From contig JAKJGF010000014.1 of NCBI GenBank assembly GCA_022704525.1, forward strand, positions 1-38,541: 38,541 nucleotides of DNA. The letters are read 5' to 3'. The translations under genes and the position numbers were made by a program. The stretch is from Bacillota bacterium. GTDB taxonomy: Bacteria; Vulcanimicrobiota; SpSt-956; JAKJGF01. The notes under the pieces were generated by a model that was not told where the DNA came from, searched no databases, and was given only the letters and a program-made list of their open reading frames with translations. This document shows positions 6,083 through 8,786 of this stretch, in pieces (position 1 is the first letter of the stretch; each line of letters begins with the position of its first letter).

Positions 6083-6291
6083 ATCTCTTATCTCTCCGAC
6101 TATTATGTATAATAGAATTTCAATAAAAACTTTCTCTTACCTTCTATACAAAAAATATAAACAACTATGGTAAATTCTTTCTTTTTATTGTAGAATATAC
6201 TTACTGACCTGAGCATAAATATCTAATACAGATTCGCTTTAACCTGGATGTATATTATATAATAGTTAGTCAAAATAGTAAACCTGCCAAG

Positions 6292-6415
6292 GAGGCTACA
6301 GAGAAAAAAGGCCGGCATACTTAAAGAAAGTTTTAACTTAATTCCCTATTGAAATTTAAAGTATATTCCTCAGGTATAAGAAGTATAAGCCTTCATATTT
6401 TTTCTAAGTAGCCTC
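6292..6415. repeat. long imperfect inverted repeat (structured RNA or MITE-like element)
   Basis: Left arm 6292-6322 and right arm 6381-6415 are complementary in successive blocks. GAGGCTAC (6292-6299) pairs with GTAGCCTC (6408-6415), AGAAAAAA (6302-6309) with TTTTTTCT (6398-6405), GGC (6310-6312) with GCC (6389-6391) and ATACTT (6317-6322) with AAGTAT (6381-6386). Short internal loops separate the blocks. About 58 bases of AT-rich sequence lie between the arms. No target-site duplication or transposase is visible. Confidence 0.6.
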
Positions 6416-6446
6416 AATGCTGAATTTAATACACTTGATAGCGAAA

Positions 6447-6455
6447 TGGTATAAT
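6447..6455 (+). promoter_or_regulatory. extended -10 promoter of the kinase gene
   Basis: TGG followed by TATAAT at 6450-6455. The -35 is weak (TTAATA about 18 bases upstream). It lies 87 bases before the ATG and just downstream of the inverted-repeat element, so the element would not be in the transcript if this is the only promoter. Confidence 0.5.
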
Positions 6456-6542: not shown

Positions 6543-8786
6543 ATGCTTTTTTGTGAAAAATGCGGACATAATAATAGCGATGAAGCATGTTTTTGCCAGA
6601 AATGCGGTGAAAAAATAATAGTCAGAACCCAGAGCGGCTTCATCGGTAAAGGTGTAATCCTGGACGGAAGATATGAAATCAAAAGAATGATAAAAGCCGG
6701 CGGTATGGGTGCTGTTTATGAAGCCATAGACAGACGGTTTCTGGATAAGCCCTGTGCAATAAAGGAAATGTTGAGTGATTACACCAATCCTGCAGATCAA
6801 CAATATATGATAAAATCGTTCAAAAAAGAAGCAGAACTCCTTCATGATCTGAGACATCCAAATATGCCTATTGTAAAGGATTATTTTATAGAACATAGCC
6901 GTTATTATCTGGTAATGGATTATATTGAAGGAAAAGATCTTGAAACAATTATTCAGGGATATTTTCCAGTAGGAGTCCCTATAGATAAAGTTATTCACTG
7001 GTCACTCCAGATACTTGATGCCCTTGATTACCTTCATTCTCAATCCCCTCCGATAGTATATAGAGACTTAAAACCAGGCAATATAATGCTTCGTAACTCA
7101 GATGAGAAATTAATGTTAATAGATTTCGGTATAGCAAGAAGGGTTTTCCCTGGAAGTCAGACTACAAAAACATCAGTGGGAACTCCTGTATTTGCTGCAG
7201 AAGAATTATTTTATGGAAAACCTGAACCACGTTCTGATATATATTCTCTGGGAGCAACAATGCACTGCTTATTAGCAGGCGAAACGCCTCTTGTACCATT
7301 TTCTTTCAAACATCTCCGGAGTATTAATCCTGAAATCCCGGAAGAACTTGAAGAAATAGTAATGAAAGCACTGGGTAAAACCCCTCAGGAGAGATTCAGA
7401 AATGCGAGAGAAATGAAAAAAGCCCTTGAAGCTCTATCCTTTACAGGACAATTAAAATTGATAGAAATTACCGATGAAACTATAAATAGATTAAAAACCA
7501 CCTTATCCACTGAACAGATATCCTCTCTAGAAGCACTTATACACAATAAATTTTCTGAAGAAAATCTAATAATAGCTTTAAAAAATCTGAATTTCAATAC
7601 AGAAGAAATTAACAATGTCATCAAAGAAACTAATATCCAGAATAATTGCCCCCTAAAGCTGGAAAATCAAGATGTTTCTTCCAACAAAGAAGGAAAGACA
7701 AAACCTGTGGCGATAGCTCCTTCCACTGTACATATAATTACACCACCTTCAGGGAAGAAGAAAATAAATCTTATTCCAATTCTAGCAGGTTTTCTCTGTA
7801 TACTGGTTCTGGTAGCAGGAATAATCTACTTTTTAAATAACAGGGATTATACACTATTAGTAGAAAATGCAGTTAAAAACAGTGATTATGGGACAGCCAT
7901 AAAATACTGTAAAAAAATTCTGAAGAAAGACGGTAATGATATAAAAACACATAAAAAACTTTTAGACATATATATGATTACTGAACTGGAGGATTATAAA
8001 CAGATAAGTTTACTACTGGATAAACTCATAGAAATAGATAAAGAAAATAGTAAGGATTATATCCAAAAATATATTGAACTCTGTAACAAAAGCTTACAGA
8101 AAAAGGATAAAGAGTTTGCTAAAGAATGCTTTGAAAAAATTCTCCATTCAGATCCTGACAACCTTATGGCTTTAAAAGAAATAGCTGAATATTATAAAGA
8201 GAAGAATCAATATGAAAAAGCAATTGAATATTATGAAAGAATTTTAAAAATAAAACCTGCAAATACTGAGGTTAATTTAACTCTGGCTGATTATTACATA
8301 CATAATGAAGACTATGATAAAGCAAGCAGCTATTATGAAAAAGCAAAAGCTAATATAAAAGATAAGAAAAAAGAAAAAGAAATAAAGGAAAAACTTTCAG
8401 TTTGCTATTTAAATCGTGCAAAAAACTGTGAGGATCCTGATAAGGCACAAAAATTATTTGATAAAGCACTGAAGTTAGATAAAAATAATACTGAAGCAGG
8501 GAAAGAATTTGTTAACTCTTGCATCAAACAGGCAAAGACATTTTTAAAGTCTAAAAAATATGATCTGGCAAAAGGGAAGTGTGAAGAAATTCTTAATCGT
8601 TTTTCCACAGGAGAATTTGCAAAAAAAGCCAAGGACTTTCTTGAAAAAATAGAGAAACAGCAAAATTCTCCAACATACATTCCGGCAAATACTACTATTT
8701 ATTATAATAATAATCCACAATCATATCCAACTCAACAGACACATACTGGCAATGAAGAAGAGAATAAGGATGGAATATTTCGTTAG
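6543..8786 (+). CDS. zinc-ribbon Ser/Thr protein kinase with transmembrane segment and C-terminal TPRs
   Basis: 747 residues. The N-terminal zinc ribbon uses C4/C7 and C18/C21. The Hanks-type kinase spans about 38-297: Gly loop GGMGAVYEA (53-61), Lys74 in AIKEM, catalytic loop YRDLKPGNIML (Asp175), DFG at 194-196 and GTPVFAAEE in the activation/APE segment. HRD and APE are replaced by YRD and AEE, but the Lys, both Asp and the Asn are present, so activity is plausible. A variable linker leads to a membrane segment at about 409-431, then TPRs from about 437 to 700 (for example NQYEKAIEYYERILKIKPAN). Kinase inside and TPR outside is the predicted topology. SD AAAGGAT precedes the ATG. The next gene, 33 bases on, is a kinase-less paralogue. 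Confidence 0.92.
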   Translation: MLFCEKCGHNNSDEACFCQKCGEKIIVRTQSGFIGKGVILDGRYEIKRMIKAGGMGAVYEAIDRRFLDKPCAIKEMLSDYTNPADQQYMIKSFKKEAELLHDLRHPNMPIVKDYFIEHSRYYLVMDYIEGKDLETIIQGYFPVGVPIDKVIHWSLQILDALDYLHSQSPPIVYRDLKPGNIMLRNSDEKLMLIDFGIARRVFPGSQTTKTSVGTPVFAAEELFYGKPEPRSDIYSLGATMHCLLAGETPLVPFSFKHLRSINPEIPEELEEIVMKALGKTPQERFRNAREMKKALEALSFTGQLKLIEITDETINRLKTTLSTEQISSLEALIHNKFSEENLIIALKNLNFNTEEINNVIKETNIQNNCPLKLENQDVSSNKEGKTKPVAIAPSTVHIITPPSGKKKINLIPILAGFLCILVLVAGIIYFLNNRDYTLLVENAVKNSDYGTAIKYCKKILKKDGNDIKTHKKLLDIYMITELEDYKQISLLLDKLIEIDKENSKDYIQKYIELCNKSLQKKDKEFAKECFEKILHSDPDNLMALKEIAEYYKEKNQYEKAIEYYERILKIKPANTEVNLTLADYYIHNEDYDKASSYYEKAKANIKDKKKEKEIKEKLSVCYLNRAKNCEDPDKAQKLFDKALKLDKNNTEAGKEFVNSCIKQAKTFLKSKKYDLAKGKCEEILNRFSTGEFAKKAKDFLEKIEKQQNSPTYIPANTTIYYNNNPQSYPTQQTHTGNEEENKDGIFR

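Follow-up and report, generated by a model that had tools for sequence, protein, structure and literature searches.

Inverted repeat and surrounding element upstream of the kinase gene

Within the window (the whole 38,541-nucleotide stretch analysed here), a Ser/Thr kinase gene with TPR repeats occupies positions 6,543 to 8,786 of the plus strand (Pkinase 2.6e-40, together with TPR families). A long inverted repeat at 6,292 to 6,415 (plus strand) lies upstream of it. The preliminary description had read this sequence as a multi-block palindrome, and all four blocks were recovered where they had been placed and paired in register. As RNA, the sequence folded to -28.6 kcal/mol on the plus strand (z -2.80, with 1 of 200 shuffles equally good) and to -34.0 kcal/mol on the minus strand (z -3.86, with 0 of 200), the z-scores being taken against dinucleotide-preserving shuffles. 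Hence, the thermodynamic fold and shuffled-sequence test that had been proposed for it showed excess stability on both strands. No Rfam family matched the palindrome, either at the gathering cutoff or at a permissive E<=1.

The palindrome is the inner part only of a longer element. Homology to other copies in the genome and a target-site duplication set the limits of this element at 6,227 to 6,451 (plus strand, 225 bp), between two divergently transcribed genes and 92 bp before the kinase gene, which itself lies outside. Its terminal inverted repeats are TACAGATTCGCTTTAA / TACCATTTCGCTATCAAG. The left repeat, TACAGATTCGCTTTAACCTGGATG (6,227 to 6,250, plus strand), occurs in 7 further genome copies with at most 3 mismatches, while the reversed control pattern occurred in 0; the right repeat (6,434 to 6,451, minus strand) recurs without mismatch at 5 further places in the genome. 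The triplet TAA stands directly outside both ends, at 6,224 to 6,226 on the left and at 6,452 to 6,454 on the right.

The excess stability of 6,292 to 6,415 is explained by the terminal inverted repeats, and the palindrome would be a by-product of long repeats of this kind on a short element. Over the whole of 6,227 to 6,451 the excess was weaker (z -1.46 as DNA, z -2.00 as RNA of the minus strand) because the arms of the window copy have decayed. The arm self-alignment score was 34 for this copy against a shuffled mean of 25. The corresponding scores for subfamily A, described below, were 57-58 against about 21, and 0 of 300 shuffles scored as high.

Copies, subfamilies and target sites in the genome

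When the genome that holds the window (407 contigs, 5.04 Mb in total) was searched with positions 6,280 to 6,425, the inner part was found in 25 places, namely the window and 24 others, at E<1e-5, and most of them were 80-89% identical. Searches with end patterns of both types added about 15 places with ends or fragments, giving about 40 in total. The genome search suggested in the preliminary description thus showed that the palindrome is far from single-copy. When the copies were aligned with their flanks, homology extended beyond 6,292 to 6,415 and then halted at common ends. Uninterrupted copies were 181-225 bp long, and none of the copies contained an ORF of at least 90 aa.

Two subfamilies share the inner palindrome. 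Most copies belong to subfamily A (about 20 copies, mean mutual identity 95%), which starts with TACCAATCTACCATCAAACGTAGT and ends with GTACAATTGATGAATAATTGGTA, and whose arms pair across about 50 bp. Subfamily B, comprising the window copy, C306 and C377b, starts with TACsGATTCGCTTTAACCTGGATG and ends with TACACTTGATAGCGAAATGGTA; it is rarer, with only 3 two-ended copies in the searched sets, and its ends are shorter and decayed. The window copy is 87% identical to C306 and about 70% identical to subfamily A. We infer that it is old and inactive.

Of the 18 two-ended copies, 15 had the same 3 bp on both sides, with the pattern TNA (TAA, TTA or TGA), and 3 had non-matching flanks. The middle base of the flank differs among copies and agrees within each copy; therefore, these triplets stem from duplication of the target and do not belong to the repeat as a conserved segment. 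All 16 uninterrupted copies were intergenic, lying between ORFs, with a single ORF end overlapping its element by 25 bp.

Judging from these sequence features, the window palindrome very probably (about 0.93) belongs to a copy of a MITE, a non-autonomous DNA transposon. Among the options considered in the preliminary description, the MITE-like element is the one borne out by copies that are dispersed and intergenic, with terminal inverted repeats and with target-site duplications. The general features of MITEs are likewise present, i.e. a length below about 500 bp, no coding capacity, terminal inverted repeats, a target-site duplication and multiple dispersed copies. In length, the family agrees with published prokaryotic MITEs, which also lie between genes, have direct repeats and are truncated to varying degrees (PMC10969869). 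A transposase acting in trans would mobilise such an element, as is expected for the class, and the window copy would have inserted into the divergent intergenic region just before the kinase gene.

Several irregular copies were also observed. Five loci (L049, L050, L053, L055 and L056) carry a left end with no right end nearby; two of them, on C139 and C241, share the breakpoint GATGGCGTATTTAA. Some subfamily A copies (e.g. L019:2614-2831) contain an optional 20-base insert, ACGAAGTTCTCCGAAGGACA, with the potential to form a small hairpin; it is missing from other copies, the window copy among them.

Possible effects on neighbouring genes

The genes to the right of the copies are unrelated (alanyl-tRNA synthetase-like, beta-lactamase-fold, HEAT, ABC transporter, kinase, arginase, histidine kinase and alcohol dehydrogenase), and no common function was found among the genes downstream of the copies. 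The right-side gene points away from the element in 13 of the 16 uninterrupted copies. However, 6 of these 13 lie in divergent regions, where the same holds in either orientation. In tandem intergenic regions, copies were oriented with the genes in 7 of 8 cases, or in 11 of 14 when partial copies were counted, a weak tendency that falls short of significance (about 0.06 in a simple two-sided binomial test).

A genuine MITE might in addition have been co-opted, its right end supplying a promoter for the kinase gene, which would extend the MITE reading and not exclude it. The candidate extended -10 sequence TGGTATAAT (6,447 to 6,455, plus strand) is assembled from the GGTA of the right end, the duplicated TAA and a single flanking T. 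Because this junction faces the kinase gene, an effect on the gene is possible. A scan found TTAATA-18-TATAAT with TG ahead, at 10 of 12 matches to a consensus that may not be that of the host, so that the extended -10 has a TTAATA hexamer 18 bp ahead of it and stands 88 bp before the ATG. The weak bias of the copies towards downstream genes is in keeping with such a role, and outward promoters have been reported for several bacterial MITEs (PMC10969869). Nevertheless, the region shows no clear excess of promoter-like matches (4 found, 2.3 expected by chance), TATAAT needs a chance T after the target-site duplication, and no other listed copy has TATAAT at its right junction. Co-option of the right end is therefore rather unlikely. 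Slightly more doubtful still is the idea that the insertion itself created the kinase promoter and that the family at large may deliver outward promoters to TAA targets. If true, one transposition event would have rewired a signalling gene.

A structured cis-regulatory RNA, i.e. a riboswitch-like leader of the kinase mRNA, would agree with the stable fold on either strand, with the position of the element upstream of the kinase start and with the 13 of 16 right-side genes that point away. But unrelated genes follow the copies, and the 13 include the 6 orientation-neutral divergent regions, leaving in tandem regions a weak bias of 7 to 1 (11 to 3 with partial copies). In an RNAalifold analysis of 16 copies, the covariation term was unfavourable (+1.26 kcal/mol), any double change was found in only 4 of 52 pairs, and many changes in the arms disrupt pairs. 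Together with the missing Rfam matches, these results make a kinase leader very improbable, and the structured regulatory RNA dedicated to this gene that had been put forward earlier gives way before the unrelated downstream genes and the unfavourable covariation. One candidate regulatory RNA is in this way struck off. A small RNA gene, whether of the toxin-antitoxin-like kind suggested in advance or of another kind, can be virtually dismissed: the palindromic sequence is indeed repeated, but it has neither a conserved ORF nor an Rfam match, and transposition better explains the TNA-flanked ends and the dispersed copies.

Relatives, candidate transposases and associated repeats

The MITE family is a new one of ordinary kind. 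By description, it resembles Chunjie of Geobacter uraniireducens (178-235 bp) and QMITE2 of Coxiella (about 190 bp), which are similar in size and, as here, have direct repeats and terminal inverted repeats, lie mostly between genes and include many truncated copies; the repeats of QMITE2 are 7-9 bp long, whereas those of the window MITE are the 3-bp TNA (PMC10969869). The Correia elements of Neisseria can likewise be compared by description, as short palindromic MITEs often found just upstream of genes, and their published outward promoters parallel the candidate promoter TGGTATAAT at the right end of the window copy (PMC10969869).

The family is apparently restricted to its source lineage. 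A search of 148 further genomes from the phylum gave no match at E<=1e-5, and GTDB contigs and IMG/VR gave none to the exact 19-base arm pattern of subfamily A, the sole query used there. Plasmids searched with a subfamily A copy and phages searched with the window copy gave nothing; the searched databases may omit records very near the window's genome. With its clear ends and TNA target rule, the family should be useful for repeat annotation in a poorly sampled group.

An autonomous partner would be expected to encode a transposase between TACCAATYTRCC or TACSGATTCGCT ends. Neither end patterns nor four Pfam families revealed an autonomous element or transposase with the MITE ends in the assembly (407 contigs, 90.9% complete): PF01609 gave four matches, two of them also matched by PF13586, and PF13340 and PF13359 gave zero. 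Given a fragmented assembly in which several copies stand at contig ends, the partner transposon may be among the repeats missing from it. Loci with B-type ends and different insides (C123, C198, C249, C284 and C121) were considered as autonomous elements and turned out to be truncated or M2-carrying copies.

An IS5-like transposase is plausible for the MITE because the TNA rule is common to both, the 3-bp TNA target duplication being shared with the IS1031-like group of the IS5 family. The ends differ. IS1031-like elements start with GAGCGTGTTTGG or similar, whereas the MITE ends start with TACCAAT or TACsgATTCGCT, and the GAG..TGT-type ends of IS1031-like relatives are absent from the MITE.

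Decayed remnants of IS5-type transposases were observed at C92:8979-9345 (L066) and on C238 (L065). TTA borders the IS1031-like end of the C92 remnant, GAGCGTGTTGG, on its outer side, and GAG-type ends with TNA duplications are found in relatives of this remnant from other genomes. A TACCAAT-like sequence at C92:9328 was rejected as a MITE partner end. It is internal to the GAGCGTGTTGGAAAAATACC end and is coincidental, since the C92 element ends with GAGCGTGTTGGAAAAATACC and its relatives are of the GAG type (GAGCGTGTTGG).

Other repeats accompany some of the copies. A second short repeat family, also a MITE, has TACCGCAACAGG ends, a length of about 220-230 bp and a long internal inverted repeat around CTGTCCCTGTCCGGGCTCT. 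Its members are nested in first-family copies at L009, L062, L034, L158, L159, L161 and L057; where both flanks can be seen, they are 5-bp duplications, CTAAG or CGTAG. In subfamily B, the second repeat recurs at the same CTAAG site, which suggests that the composite of the two spread as one unit. A third repeated sequence, AGTGTTTCTAATAAAAAAATTCCGTAA, adjoins truncated MITE copies at L054 (C186) and L033 (C371).
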